DNA from: Fusobacterium mortiferum ATCC 9817
GTDB taxonomy: Bacteria > Fusobacteriota > Fusobacteriia > Fusobacteriales > Fusobacteriaceae
Direction of reading: 5' to 3'
NCBI RefSeq assembly: GCF_000158195.2
Contig: NZ_GL987994.1
Location: 492,343-556,342, forward strand
Length of the DNA: 64,000 nucleotides
Position 1 is the stretch's first letter, and each line of letters begins with the position of its first letter. Under the pieces are notes generated by a model, which ran no database searches, had not been told where the DNA came from, and worked only from the letters and a program-made list of their open reading frames with translations. Position numbers and translations under genes: made by a program. Positions 40,962 through 46,612 of this stretch are shown here, piece after piece.

Positions 40962-41732
40962 ATGTTTAAAAATGTAATTGTGAGAACACCAAGTAAATCA
41001 ATATGTGATGGAATAACTTCAGCACCAGAGTTAGGGAAACCTATCTATGAGAAAGCTTTGGAGCAACATAAGGGGTATATAGAGACATTGAAAAAATGTG
41101 GAGTAGAGGTAGAGGTATTAGAGCCACTAGATGAATTTCCAGATTCTTGCTTTGTAGAAGATGTAGCTGTGCTAACTAAAAATTGTGCTATTATAACAAA
41201 TCCAGGGGCAAGTAGTAGAAATAAGGAGAAGGAGTATATCATTGAACCTATAAAGAAATACTATCCAGAGGAGAAGATAGAGTATATAAAAGAGCCTGAA
41301 ACTTTAGATGGTGGAGATGTGATGATGGTAGGAAATCACTTCTATGTGGGAAAATCTGCTAGAACTAATGCAGAGGGAATAAAACAGTTTATAGAGATTT
41401 TAGAAAAGTATGGACATACTGGAAGTGAAGTAACATTAGAAGAGGTATTACACTTAAAAACAGGAGTAAACTATATAGAAAATAATACTCTTTTAGTATC
41501 TGGAGAGTTTATAACAAAGGAAGAGTTCAAAGATTATAAGAAGATAGTGATACCAGAAGATGAGGCTTATGCTTCTAACTGTATCTGGGTAAATGGAACT
41601 GTGATTGTACCAAGTGGATATCCTAAGGTGAAAAAAGCAATAGAGGAAGCTGGATACAAGGTAATATGCACAGATACATCTGAGTTTAGAAAGATTGATG
41701 GGGGACTTAGCTGTCTATCTTTGAGATTTTAG
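40962..41732 (+). CDS. Dimethylarginine dimethylaminohydrolase (DDAH) family
   Basis: A 256-residue guanidino-modifying enzyme. The usual length of bacterial DDAH is about 255. The substrate-binding region has PDSCFVEDVAV (about 60-70); the catalytic His is H164 in EVLHLKTG; the nucleophile is Cys251 in the C-terminal GGLSCLSLRF. DDAH hydrolyses N-methylarginines to citrulline and methylamines; closely related arginine deiminases and amidinotransferases share the fold, so arginine-type substrates remain possible. It follows the binding lipoprotein by 25 bases and ends at a terminator. Confidence 0.85.
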   Translation: MFKNVIVRTPSKSICDGITSAPELGKPIYEKALEQHKGYIETLKKCGVEVEVLEPLDEFPDSCFVEDVAVLTKNCAIITNPGASSRNKEKEYIIEPIKKYYPEEKIEYIKEPETLDGGDVMMVGNHFYVGKSARTNAEGIKQFIEILEKYGHTGSEVTLEEVLHLKTGVNYIENNTLLVSGEFITKEEFKDYKKIVIPEDEAYASNCIWVNGTVIVPSGYPKVKKAIEEAGYKVICTDTSEFRKIDGGLSCLSLRF

Positions 41733-41739
41733 TAGTTTT

Positions 41740-41772
41740 GGTGTTGATGAGAAATCATTGACACCTTTTTTT
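41740..41772 (+). terminator. Terminator after the DDAH gene
   Basis: GGTGTTGATGA (41740-41750) pairs along its length with TCATTGACACC (two G-U pairs) around a GAAA loop, then seven T residues. Confidence 0.85.
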
Positions 41773-41870
41773 ATTTAAAGAGCTGATACTTATTTATATT
41801 AGTTGGTATCGGTGAGAAAATAGTAGTAAAATTATAGAAGGTATGGAAAGTAAAGATAATAAAAAATCTA

Positions 41871-41915
41871 TCTTACTAAAATTTTAGTAGAATGGGATAT
41901 AGAATTAAAAAGATA
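41871..41915 (+). repeat. Left direct repeat of the accessory module
   Basis: The block starts with TCTTACTAAAATTTTAGTAG and is repeated at 45391, about 3.5 kb downstream. It includes the perfect 16-base palindrome TACTAAAATTTTAGTA (41874-41889). In one frame it reads LTKILVEWDIELKR then a stop, so it may be a 3' remnant of a repeated gene. The rest of the 400-base gap to 42150 has another hairpin (CACTATACT/AGTATAGTG at 41921) and no convincing gene. Confidence 0.65.
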
Positions 41916-42149
41916 AAAAGCACTATACTAAAATTTAAGTATAGTGAGAAAAGTAAGTAAAATCTATTTAGAAATTATAGGAAAATATGGTAAAATAGAG
42001 TAGAAAAGCTGGATAAAATTAATAGAAGAAAATATTTATTTCAGAAGTAAGTTTATTTTTAAAAAGATTATTTTGAATTAAATAATAAACTTTATACTTT
42101 ATTATGAAATGAGTTATTAGAAAGTTTAGTTAAATATGAGGGGGAGAAG

Positions 42150-42806
42150 TTGGAAAATATAATAGTATGGGGAGGAATAATTACAATGAATTTACTATTT
42201 GTATTTATTTCTCCAATATTGGATAGCTTATCAGATAATGAGAATAGAGAAAAATTAGAAAAAAAGTGGTTAAAAGCTTTTATAATAATTTTGATAGTAA
42301 GTAAAATAATAACTTATTATATAAATGAATATGAGATTGATAGTCAATTAATATTTGATTTTATTAATGGAAATTTAAAATTTTTATTTAATAAGGGAGA
42401 AAATCCAATAATAAATTTACTAGAAATTATAGTAAATATTTCTTAGTCTTTAGAAATATATTTAGGAGTAATTTCAGTTTTAGTTGCTATATATATTTAT
42501 TTAATAGGATTAAATGATGATTTTAAAAAATATGTATTATTAACTTTATTAGGAGAAGGAAGACCACTTTATTTAACAGTATTTTTGTTAATTTTATATT
42601 TCTTTAATGTTTCTCCTATTCTTTTTATTGGGTTAAATATAGTTGTTTTTTATGAGTTATATAATATGATAAAAGAAACTTTTAAAATAACAAATAATGG
42701 ATATTTTAAAACTAACTGGGATAAAGAAATTATTAACCAGTTACTAAAAATAAGAAATATAAAAGCTTTAGAGAATATGTATTATGAAATAAGAAAAAAA
42801 TTATGA
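42150..42806 (+). pseudogene. Membrane protein of the accessory module, interrupted by an in-frame amber codon
   Basis: A TTG at 42150 behind a GAGGGGGAG site starts a frame with about four hydrophobic segments over 219 codons, but a TAG at 42444-42446 stops it after 98 residues. The frame then stays open (SLEIYLGVISVLVAIYIYL onward) to TGA at 42804-42806. That stop overlaps the ATG of the next gene (ATGA), as expected if the two were coupled. A second start within the distal half (near 42585) lacks a good ribosome site. No family recognised. Likely a substitution-inactivated gene, a read-through stop, or an error. Confidence 0.6.
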
Positions 42807-44602
42807 AAGCTATTTTAGAAAAAGATTTCATTCTTTTAGAAGAAACAATATTTTATTACCAAGAGCTTTTGATGGCAGACAGTTTAAAAGAAATTCCAGA
42901 AGATTATATTTTACCTTTTGAAAAAATTGATAATAAAAAACAGGAAGATTTTCAAGAGAATATTAATTTACCAAAAGAATTTAAGAATAGTGTTACGAAT
43001 AGTGAGCAAGAGAGAATAGAAAGAAAAGAGAATTACGAAAGAAATACTTTAGTTATTAGAGAAATGAAAAAAGCAGTGAGATTTTTATATAAAATATATA
43101 AACTGTTAATTAAAGAACCTGATAATAATTTATTTGAAGAAATTTCAGATGTAAATTTAGTATTAGGAAAATATTATTTAGAAAAACAAGAATATTCAAC
43201 AGCAAGAGCATATTTTGATTTTTTAAAATTAAAATATAAATACTTAAAAAATAATGAAGTGTATTCTAAAGAAATAAAAGAGCTGTATTTATTTAGTGGA
43301 CTAAGATATTATGAAACGTATTATGAAAAATTATCAGAGGAACAAGAGATAATTATACTAAAATCTATACTAAATCTATTTAATGAGATGGTAGAAAATG
43401 ATGATATTGAAGATATTTTAAGGTACCAAGAAATTTTTACAAGAAAAAGAGAAGAAGTTGATATGATTTTATTAAAAGAATACACAAGGTTACTTTTGAT
43501 ATTTTTATTAGAAAAAAAGGGGACTAAGAGTAAAAAAGAAACTGAAATAAAAAATATCATAAATTCAATAGAAAATAAATATTTATATGATTCTAACAAA
43601 TTATTAGAAAAAATATATATTCAAAGTGCTGAGAAAGAATGGGATAGAAAATTTGATATAATTGATTATATTTATAATAAGCCAGATATTTTTGGATTAT
43701 CAACAGGGAGTATTCCAGTTAATTGTACAAGAGATATAATTTTAAGATTAATGGATAAAGTATATTACAGTATTAGTGATGACTTTATAATAGATAACTA
43801 TGAAGAGCTAGAAATAAAAATTTCTGAATTAAAATTAGAAAATTTAAATTCTAGGCTTAATGAGTTATCTGATAGTATAAGAATGAAAAAGGCTGAAAAA
43901 ATAAGTAAAATTCAATTAACAGAGGAAGAATTAACTAAAATTTATAGTTTTGTTAGTGAAGAAAATAGTAGTTTTTATAAATTTTTAAATTTTAATTTAA
44001 AATATAGTTTTTCTTTAATTTTTCTATCAAAGAAAAGTGAATGGGAGAAAGATTTTAAAGGGTATAAAACAATTTATGAAAATAGATTTATTAAAAATTT
44101 AATAAATACTAAAAGTTACTTAATAAATTCCTATATCAATTTACTAAATGAATTTTGGTTTATTGAATGTATAAAAACTCAAATTAAAAAAATTGAGAAT
44201 ATTGAAGAAATATTCAAGCTAGAAAAAGATAAGTATTTTATACTTTCTAATAACTCAAATAGGAGATTTTTAAATAAGATTGGAATTTTAACTCATTACT
44301 TTTCAAATTGGAATATGGAAAAAACTTATATTATAAATAAAAAGTCAATAAAAGAGATTATCTTCTATCTTCCAGAAGGGTATGACAGATTAAAATATAC
44401 TTATGTAGAAATTGAATCTTTAAAAGATAATAAAGATGAAAAAATCTTAGAGATAATTGAGGGAGAAACTAAAGAAGAAAAAGAGTTAATAAGACAAGGA
44501 AGTAGTATTTTAAAAGTTGCTAAGAAAATGGAGATAGTATTTAATGATGAAATTGAAATTTATGAGGTTTCAAATGAAAAACTAAAAGATGAGGAAAGAT
44601 AG
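42803..44602 (+). CDS. 599-residue protein of unknown function, accessory module
   Basis: A soluble-looking, highly charged protein with no recognised motif. The N-terminal 300 residues are almost entirely helical, with patterns such as LGKYYLEKQEYSTARAYFDF (about 122-141) that resemble TPR-type repeats. The central part contains a GLSTGSIPVNC turn, and the C-terminus holds an IFYLPEGYDRL segment (about 510) and strands. It overlaps the upstream membrane frame by 4 bases and precedes a nuclease gene by 3 bases, so all three form one transcription unit. A scaffold or sensor role is only a guess from position. Confidence 0.7.
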   Translation: MKAILEKDFILLEETIFYYQELLMADSLKEIPEDYILPFEKIDNKKQEDFQENINLPKEFKNSVTNSEQERIERKENYERNTLVIREMKKAVRFLYKIYKLLIKEPDNNLFEEISDVNLVLGKYYLEKQEYSTARAYFDFLKLKYKYLKNNEVYSKEIKELYLFSGLRYYETYYEKLSEEQEIIILKSILNLFNEMVENDDIEDILRYQEIFTRKREEVDMILLKEYTRLLLIFLLEKKGTKSKKETEIKNIINSIENKYLYDSNKLLEKIYIQSAEKEWDRKFDIIDYIYNKPDIFGLSTGSIPVNCTRDIILRLMDKVYYSISDDFIIDNYEELEIKISELKLENLNSRLNELSDSIRMKKAEKISKIQLTEEELTKIYSFVSEENSSFYKFLNFNLKYSFSLIFLSKKSEWEKDFKGYKTIYENRFIKNLINTKSYLINSYINLLNEFWFIECIKTQIKKIENIEEIFKLEKDKYFILSNNSNRRFLNKIGILTHYFSNWNMEKTYIINKKSIKEIIFYLPEGYDRLKYTYVEIESLKDNKDEKILEIIEGETKEEKELIRQGSSILKVAKKMEIVFNDEIEIYEVSNEKLKDEER

Positions 44603-44605
44603 ACT

Positions 44606-45331
44606 ATGACAAATACATTTAAAGGAAGTAAGTTTGAAGAGGTTACTAAATTATTATTAGAAGAGTATTTACAAGAAAAATTAGAGGAACAAAAGAAAGT
44701 TGAGATAGGATTTGAGGAGAAGAGAGAACATAGATTTGATTTGGGAAACTCAAATTATTTGATAGAGTGTAAGGCTTATGAGTGGACAAAGGAGAATAAT
44801 AATCCAAGTGCTAAATTATCTACTTTAAGAGAAACACTGTACTATTTCTTTTTGGCTCCAAAAAATTATAAAAAGATTTTAGTTTTAAAGAAAAGTAGAG
44901 TAAAAAATGGAGAAACTGTTTTAGATTATTTTATAAGACTAAACTATCACTTGATACCTAAAAATGTAGAGATATTTGAAATAGATATGGATAAAAAACT
45001 TCTTGTTAAAAAAGAGATAAATAAAACAGAGATTTTAAAGAATACAGAGGAAAAAGTCATAATAGTTACAAGAAAAAATAAAAAGACAGATAATCCAAGT
45101 GTAGATGAAGTAAGAGCTTATATTAAGAAACAGCTAGATGATTTAAAGGCTAAGGGAGTAAAAGAGTATGAGATTGTAGCTGGAAATATAGAAAAAGAAA
45201 TGAAAATAGTTAGAGCTCCTAAAACTGTATGTTCAGCTATGAGGAGTTGTGGATATGACTATGAAGAGATATACTCTCCACCTAAAAAGAATGGAAGTAG
45301 CTTAAGATTGAAGTATATCTTATCACTTTGA
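44606..45331 (+). CDS. PD-(D/E)XK-type nuclease with a C-terminal winged-helix-like region
   Basis: A 241-residue cytoplasmic protein. The N-terminal domain has the PD-(D/E)XK signature: Asp45 in HRFDLG and Glu54-x-Lys56 in YLIECKAYEW, preceded by a helix with a conserved Glu (FEEVTKLLLEEYL). Such folds cut DNA in restriction and defence enzymes. The last 80 residues (DEVRAYIKKQLDDLKAKG, then ..KTVCSAMRSCGYDYEEI) look like a winged-helix or DNA-recognition module. No methyltransferase is adjacent. It ends the three-gene accessory module. A restriction-like role against foreign DNA is an inference from fold and context. Confidence 0.72.
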   Translation: MTNTFKGSKFEEVTKLLLEEYLQEKLEEQKKVEIGFEEKREHRFDLGNSNYLIECKAYEWTKENNNPSAKLSTLRETLYYFFLAPKNYKKILVLKKSRVKNGETVLDYFIRLNYHLIPKNVEIFEIDMDKKLLVKKEINKTEILKNTEEKVIIVTRKNKKTDNPSVDEVRAYIKKQLDDLKAKGVKEYEIVAGNIEKEMKIVRAPKTVCSAMRSCGYDYEEIYSPPKKNGSSLRLKYILSL

Positions 45332-45390
45332 AAGTCATTTTTCTAAATAGTAAGTAAGAAGTTACTGAAAAGTTCAGTAAGATAATTCTT

Positions 45391-45437
45391 TCTTACTAAA
45401 ATTTTAGTAGAATGGAATATGGAGTAAAAGAGATAAT
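45391..45437 (+). repeat. Right direct repeat of the accessory module
   Basis: Direct copy of the block at 41871, identical over the first 25 bases (TCTTACTAAAATTTTAGTAG then AATGG) and similar for 20 more, including the 16-base palindrome (45394-45409). In the matching frame the fourth-last codon is TAA rather than TTA. The 275-base gap to 45607 also contains a terminator at 45511 and a possible degraded coding trace near 45420-45490. Confidence 0.65.
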
Positions 45438-45510
45438 CAAGTTAGAGTATGTTTTTGATGGGGAAAAGGTAATTAGTTCTGTTGAAAAATAGAAGCTTGT
45501 ATTAGAAAAT

Positions 45511-45547
45511 AGAGTTATTACACAATCTAGGTAGTAGCTCTATTTTT
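45511..45547 (+). terminator. Terminator after the accessory module
   Basis: AGAGTTATTAC (45511-45521) pairs with GTAGTAGCTCT (45531-45541), two G-U pairs, followed by a T-rich tail. Confidence 0.75.
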
Positions 45548-45606
45548 ATTTGTAAAAAAATATGATAAAATATATAGGAGAAAATTTGATAAAATGGAGG
45601 GATAAG

Positions 45607-46587
45607 ATGAAGGTAGCAATATTAGGAGCTGGATACATAGGTGGTATCATGGCAGAAACAATAAAAGGAATGGCTCATAAGGATATAGAACTATATGCAG
45701 TGGGAGCAAGAGATATAAAGAAAGCTGAGGAATTTGCACAGAAGTATGGTATAAAAAAAGCTTATGGAAGCTATGAAGAGTTGGTAAAAGATGAGAAGAT
45801 AGACTTAGTATATATAGCAACTCCACATTCTCATCACTATCAACATGGAAAACTATGTATAGAGAATGGGAAAAATATTCTATGTGAAAAAGCTTTTACA
45901 GTGAATGAAGAGCAAGCTAGAGAGTTATTTAGATTAGCTAAGGAGAAAAATATATTTATAACAGAGGCAATTTGGACAAGATATATGCCATCAAGAGAGA
46001 TAATAAATGGAATTGTAAAGTCTGGGGAGTTAGGAGAGGTGCATACTATTCAAGCTAACTTAGGTTACCCTATAAAAAATGTAGAGAGAATGAGAAAGCC
46101 AGAGCTAGCTGGTGGGGCATTATTAGATTTAGGAGTTTATCCAATTAACTTTTCTATGATGGTATTTGGAGATGAGGTAAAGGATATTCAAGCTCATGCT
46201 ACATTTTCTCCAGAGGGAATAGATTTTACAGATAGTATTACTCTTTTCTGGGAAGGGGGAAAGATGGCAACACTACATGCTACAATGCTTACAGCCACAG
46301 ATAGAATGGGATATATCTATGGAGAAGAGGGGTATTTAGCTATTACAAATATAAATAATCCTGAGAAAATAGAGCAATTTGATAAGGAGCATAGATTAGT
46401 AAAAACTTATGAGATACCAAAACAGGTAAGTGGATATGAGTATGAGGTAATAGCATCTTATAAAGCTATAAAAAATAGTAAGTTAGAGTGTGAAGAGATG
46501 CCACATGAGATAACTTTAAAAGTGATGAATGTGATGGACACTATTCGTAAACAATGGGGAATGAAATTTCCTTGTGAAAATCTATAA
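45607..46587 (+). CDS. Gfo/Idh/MocA-family oxidoreductase
   Basis: A 326-residue NAD(P)-dependent dehydrogenase. The Rossmann motif is ILGAGYIGGIMAE (about 5-17), the IATPHSHHYQ and CEKAFTVN motifs (about 75-98) include the active-site Lys, and the ELAGGALLDLGVYPINF segment (about 170-186) marks the second domain with the catalytic His-like position replaced by Val-Tyr as in many dimeric dihydrodiol-dehydrogenase-like members. The ATG at 45607 has a GGAGGG site; the longer frame from 45562 has none. Substrate unknown, probably a sugar or inositol derivative. Single gene, closed by a terminator. Confidence 0.88.
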   Translation: MKVAILGAGYIGGIMAETIKGMAHKDIELYAVGARDIKKAEEFAQKYGIKKAYGSYEELVKDEKIDLVYIATPHSHHYQHGKLCIENGKNILCEKAFTVNEEQARELFRLAKEKNIFITEAIWTRYMPSREIINGIVKSGELGEVHTIQANLGYPIKNVERMRKPELAGGALLDLGVYPINFSMMVFGDEVKDIQAHATFSPEGIDFTDSITLFWEGGKMATLHATMLTATDRMGYIYGEEGYLAITNINNPEKIEQFDKEHRLVKTYEIPKQVSGYEYEVIASYKAIKNSKLECEEMPHEITLKVMNVMDTIRKQWGMKFPCENL

Positions 46588-46612
46588 TAAAAAAGAATAC
46601 TTAAATTAAACT

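Follow-up and report, generated by a model that had tools for sequence, protein, structure and literature searches.

A probable composite accessory insertion with a broken membrane-protein gene and an intact PD-(D/E)XK nuclease gene in Fusobacterium mortiferum

An unnamed nuclease family and its defence-gene neighbours

The PD-(D/E)XK motif of the nuclease described here is shared with the Mrr catalytic domain (PF04471), and a relative from a second Fusobacteriaceae species (genome G029) matches Mrr_cat weakly and below threshold (E 0.037, 14.6 bits versus a cut-off of 21). However, the nuclease of the window, i.e. of the whole 64,000-nucleotide stretch of F. mortiferum ATCC 9817 that was analysed, has no Mrr match above the Pfam cut-off, no Pfam match at E<=1 and no significant match in any family library, and its additional domain is a different one. 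Judged by its sequence, it is a member of an unnamed PD-(D/E)XK family. The gene (44606..45331, + strand) has its own ribosome-binding site (GAGGAAAG) and codes for 241 aa, including a C-terminal domain of ~85 residues. Its product is 64% identical to the proteins from G029 and G031, which agree with it in the two-domain layout and in the catalytic residues. The presence of a PD-(D/E)XK nuclease, which had been proposed in an earlier note on this DNA, is borne out by the intact ORF with a conserved acidic residue followed by the (D/E)-x-K core. Five homologues from three phyla (Fusobacteriota, Methylobacter and Haloplanus sources) show no variation in F44-D45 and E54-C55-K56 (FD...ECK), nor in K15, E19, P67, K70 and E76. 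For the C-terminal tail, described as winged-helix-like in the earlier note and hence a putative domain of this type, Pfam returned no match; the domain is missing in the Methylobacter and Haloplanus relatives.

An AlphaFold model of the nuclease, built without an alignment and with a mean pLDDT of 40.7, gives a predicted helix-strand-strand-strand order that would fit an alpha-beta-beta-beta-alpha-beta core; the models obtained in this way (pLDDT 40.7 and 35.1) are too poor for a fold search. Among the solved structures searched there were chance-level matches alone, and the literature search returned nothing relevant. Beyond the Fusobacteriota the searches covered plasmid, phage and viral collections as well as peptide-pattern scans of genome contigs. 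Neither the nuclease nor its C-terminal domain had a match in phage records, the viral-contig scans with the G029 nuclease and with the nuclease alignment revealed no relatives, and the genome-contig scans gave no tblastn-confirmed relatives of the nuclease or of the helical protein encoded upstream of it.

The intact relative in G029 follows PDC-M30A/B and PDC-M33A/B/C genes recognized by PADLOC. Its equivalent in G031, which lacks its own start and the N-terminus, follows a type III Mod/Res pair (Mod named by eye). Both are located just upstream of msrAB and autotransporter-like genes (named by eye), so that one and the same site is occupied by different defence genes in the two genomes. A distant relative, 38% identical to the nuclease, is encoded by an unannotated ORF of the Methylobacter plasmid NZ_CP091425.1 (L054:7848-8357) in the vicinity of TcmP, DUF5131 and two IS256 copies, and TcmP/DUF5131 also make up PDC-M30 in G029. 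The complete order in G029 (L021:2595-9360) is PDC-M30A (TcmP-like), PDC-M30B/DUF5131, PDC-M33A/B/C, an uncharacterized 232-aa gene and the nuclease relative.

The unnamed family hence adjoins defence genes of unrelated types in two species of the Fusobacteriaceae, and a distant member is located close to TcmP/DUF5131 on a Methylobacter plasmid. These neighbours suggest that it is probably associated with defence genes, which implies no mechanism. In contrast to the G029 and G031 proteins, the nuclease of the window follows a broken mobile-element gene. The defence assignment of the earlier note is supported by context for the nuclease only and not for the three-gene system that it had proposed. 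It is the nuclease family, and not the membrane and helical pair, that deserves testing.

Two halves of one membrane-anchored gene

The two ORFs upstream of the nuclease gene had been counted as separate genes for a membrane protein and a 599-residue helical protein. The 5' part (42150..42806, + strand) starts with a TTG at 42150 behind a good ribosome-binding site, encodes four hydrophobic segments and has ~36-38% identity with the N-terminal region of the protein encoded at L023:7884-10190 in Cetobacterium somerae (G009). Its frame is interrupted by an in-frame TAG stop codon at 42444-42446 and is open again up to 42806. The 3' part (42803..44602, + strand) comprises 599 codons for a helical protein without a transmembrane segment, its ATG at 42803 lacks a ribosome-binding site, and residues 78-595 are 28% identical to the G009 protein (E 1e-43). 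Both ORFs overlap as ATGA. A tblastn search with the 768-aa homologue aligned its residues 56-197 in frame 3 (42357-42794) and its residues 197-765 in frame 2 (42791-44572), which corresponds to a -1 frame shift at an A7 run (42794..42800, + strand). As the homologues are fused end to end and the frame switches at 42791-42794, the alignments identify the two ORFs as the halves of one gene, and the count of three genes has to be abandoned. Decay is the simplest reading of two separate lesions, the TAG codon and the frameshift, and the gene is most likely a decaying pseudogene that would have lost its function. The shift at the A7 run may also reflect an assembly error. A match of the membrane part to TcpE (E 2e-4, below the cut-off of that profile) was rejected as a match of hydrophobic segments.

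Single-chain homologues of 768 aa (L023, C. somerae G009) and 805 aa (L053, G001) and a shortened one of 480 aa (L024, G001) all have N-terminal hydrophobic segments. The C. somerae homologue (WP_240220788.1, annotated as "hypothetical protein") resembles the gene of the window in its N-terminal hydrophobic segments, which are followed by a helical C-terminal part with 28% identity over ~500 residues (E 1e-43). It differs in being an intact single chain, whereas the window gene is broken by the TAG codon and the frameshift, and in not adjoining a nuclease of this family. It is encoded in a prophage of NZ_CP092520.1 together with RecT, YqaJ, a LexA-type repressor, DUF262, a methylase, RepA, an IS3 copy, VRR-NUC, ParB-like proteins, a terminase and a head protein. 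The DUF262 gene and an Eco57I-type methylase gene carried by this prophage (L064:5966-9167) possibly represent a restriction cassette of its own. In G001 one copy is located in a prophage with Rep3 and a GpA terminase; the other adjoins a ParA-like gene and a gene for a 599-residue protein matching phrog_23878, which might be a plasmid replication protein.

A homology and neighbourhood search for the 599-residue protein, as proposed in the earlier note, accordingly traced relatives to two prophages and to a position next to a ParA gene, but the protein is part of a larger gene. No profile library searched provided a name for the membrane-helical family, and the 768-aa homologue as query had no relative in the viral-contig scans and no match in phage records.

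The empty site and the dispersed palindrome

Within the genus, G018 is the genome that matches this region best at the DNA level, and a blastn comparison shows that its equivalent site is empty. Positions 41738-41949 are conserved at 92% over 212 bp (L045:9382-9593) and positions 45422-46602 at 96%; 62 nt lie between them, and the module is missing. The conserved left flank (41738..41949, + strand) comprises the terminator-like hairpin of the preceding gene and a palindromic repeat element, and the segment absent from G018 extends from 41950 to 45417 (+ strand). Left flank, repeat and right flank are thus retained without the module, so that the repeat-bearing site exists independently of it. 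Neither the helical gene nor the nuclease gene was found in any of the 11 further genomes of this genus. This distribution makes a gain simpler than a loss in G018, and the segment looks, on this comparison, as if it had been gained in the window genome; a loss in G018 may have occurred instead but is the less simple reading. These comparisons are based on one genome per species, and other strains may carry intact copies. The enclosed segment is very AT-rich, as had been stated, with a GC content of 18.6% in the membrane ORF, 21.2% in the 599-residue ORF and 27.8% in the nuclease gene versus 34-36% in the tested genes on either side. The earlier proposal of a gain as a unit agrees with the empty site and with the lack of both genes elsewhere in the genus (11 genomes), but the unit does not consist of three genes.

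The direct repeats with a 16-base palindrome ~3.5 kb apart are real. The left repeat (41864..41916, + strand) and the right repeat (45384..45436, + strand) are identical at 46 of 53 positions (87%), and the next best ungapped match of the left copy reaches 34/53 in the whole window and 30/53 on the other strand. The 24-mer CTTACTAAAATTTTAGTAGAATGG has two sites in the window, both within the direct repeats, compared with an expectation of 0. Each repeat contains the perfect 16-bp palindrome TACTAAAATTTTAGTA (41874-41889 and 45394-45409), and the right copy passes at about 45418 into the right flank that G018 also has. The left palindrome is followed by a second hairpin of the repeat element, CACTATACT/AAGTATAGTG (41921..41948, + strand), whose pairing is preserved in G018 via G-U pairs. 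This layout is the same in G018 and similar at C8:634.5 kb. The right copy lacks the second hairpin, and the junctions therefore do not represent a clean duplication. An Rfam search of positions 41000-46500 gave no match.

The palindrome is not confined to this locus. The 2.67-Mb genome of the strain (G000) contains 11 exact copies, all of them at C8:534216-646522 and hence within 112 kb (L017, L018, L019, L020 and L026). Their flanks differ and, as judged from these flanks, they occur in both orientations; two copies lie in coding sequence, one in a phage-antirepressor-like and one in a hydrolase-like gene (both named by eye). Variants with one or two exchanges are few in the C8 stretches scanned. 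Four exact copies were found in G018, three of which have flanks in common with copies here, and one in G019. The direct repeats are copies of a dispersed palindromic motif and no module-specific end; the dispersal of the motif and its occurrence at the empty site weaken the proposal that they delimit the module.

Local expansion, or a function as a protein-binding or recombination site, may account for the cluster. We also considered a parS-like function of the palindrome but did not adopt this reading, since exact copies are confined to 4 of the 41 genomes searched, that of the strain itself included. The replication origin could not be located relative to the cluster by GC skew or by a DnaA search. 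The Pfam profile Bac_DnaA had three weak matches in G000 (best E 2e-9), none of which is clearly a normal DnaA.

Composition and possible function of the segment

We consider it probable, at roughly 60%, that the segment is a composite accessory insertion located at an intergenic copy of a dispersed palindromic repeat, consisting of a broken mobile-element gene and an intact orphan nuclease gene that is probably associated with defence. The 3.5-kb segment would then combine two independently travelling genes inserted in a Fusobacteriaceae chromosome. The product of the first would formerly have been a helical protein of ~800 residues with a membrane anchor, such as prophages and ParA-type elements of the Fusobacteriaceae encode. 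The segment possibly arrived by recombination involving the repeat. The nuclease, alone or with distant partners, would most likely act as a restriction-type DNA endonuclease, with an N-terminal domain that would cut DNA via the FD...ECK metal site and a C-terminal domain that would contact DNA or a partner. The segment does not look like a working three-gene defence system, and it illustrates that what appears to be a defence operon of three genes can consist of a pseudogene of accessory origin next to an orphan nuclease.

A functional two-component phage-defence system, in which the nuclease cooperates with a helical sensor or effector that is anchored in the membrane and produced either via -1 frameshifting at A_AAA_AAA or in the form of two coupled polypeptides, seems to us rather improbable. 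The nuclease gene, which has a ribosome-binding site of its own, begins 4 nt behind the helical ORF, an operon-like arrangement, and relatives of the membrane protein are found in the accessory gene sets of prophages, which in C. somerae include DUF262 and a methylase. The A7 run is moreover an in-phase slippery heptamer exactly at the frame switch, but three further A7 runs in the same 2.45 kb show that such a run is expected from the composition. Frameshifting or coupled translation could still yield a product, yet slippage at the A7 run would not pass the TAG at 42444 and leaves this codon unexplained; the second half has no ribosome-binding site, and the intact homologues need no frameshift. 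Each gene is present in three of the 98 Fusobacteriota genomes, but both occur together in the window genome only, and no conserved neighbourhood of membrane, helical and nuclease genes was found in the 97 others. None of the three ORFs matches a PADLOC profile at E<=1, the GC content of the two genes differs (19-21% versus 28%), and the lesions (TAG 42444; frameshift 42794-42800) leave one of them broken. The uncharacterized three-gene system postulated earlier thus dissolves into one broken and one intact gene that no other searched genome of the phylum combines, although the two could once have been a functional pair. Highly improbable is the more demanding version, a defence module composed of a recoded membrane-helical partner (read-through of the TAG plus -1 slippage at the A7 run) and a nuclease family outside the current defence libraries.

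The opposite view, that the whole segment is dead DNA and that the nuclease, too, is a passenger in the course of being lost and no longer has a role, is unlikely. The neighbouring gene is indeed broken, and the truncated relative in G031 documents that the nuclease gene decays elsewhere. However, the nuclease ORF is untruncated and retains its catalytic residues and a ribosome-binding site, and the intact relative in G029 at 64% identity indicates that the coding capacity has been kept. It is also distinctly improbable that the repeats are genuine att sites terminating a particular mobile element by which the module was moved in one piece. This scenario would agree with the presence of direct repeats on either side and of a repeat at the empty site in G018. 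Yet integrase and transposase genes are absent from the interval, which contains just the broken gene and the nuclease gene; the genome contains 11 copies of the motif, located in coding and intergenic sequence and in both orientations; and the second hairpin, which the left copy and the G018 site have in common, is absent from the right copy.

The segment lies next to a difference in gene order. In G018 the corresponding terminator and repeat (L045:9382) follow an acyltransferase-like gene, and the stretch C8:539-592 kb of the F. mortiferum genome is not located at this place in G018. The different preceding gene points to a rearrangement break just behind the dimethylarginine-hydrolase-like gene, and synteny ends at 41732-41738, directly behind its stop codon.
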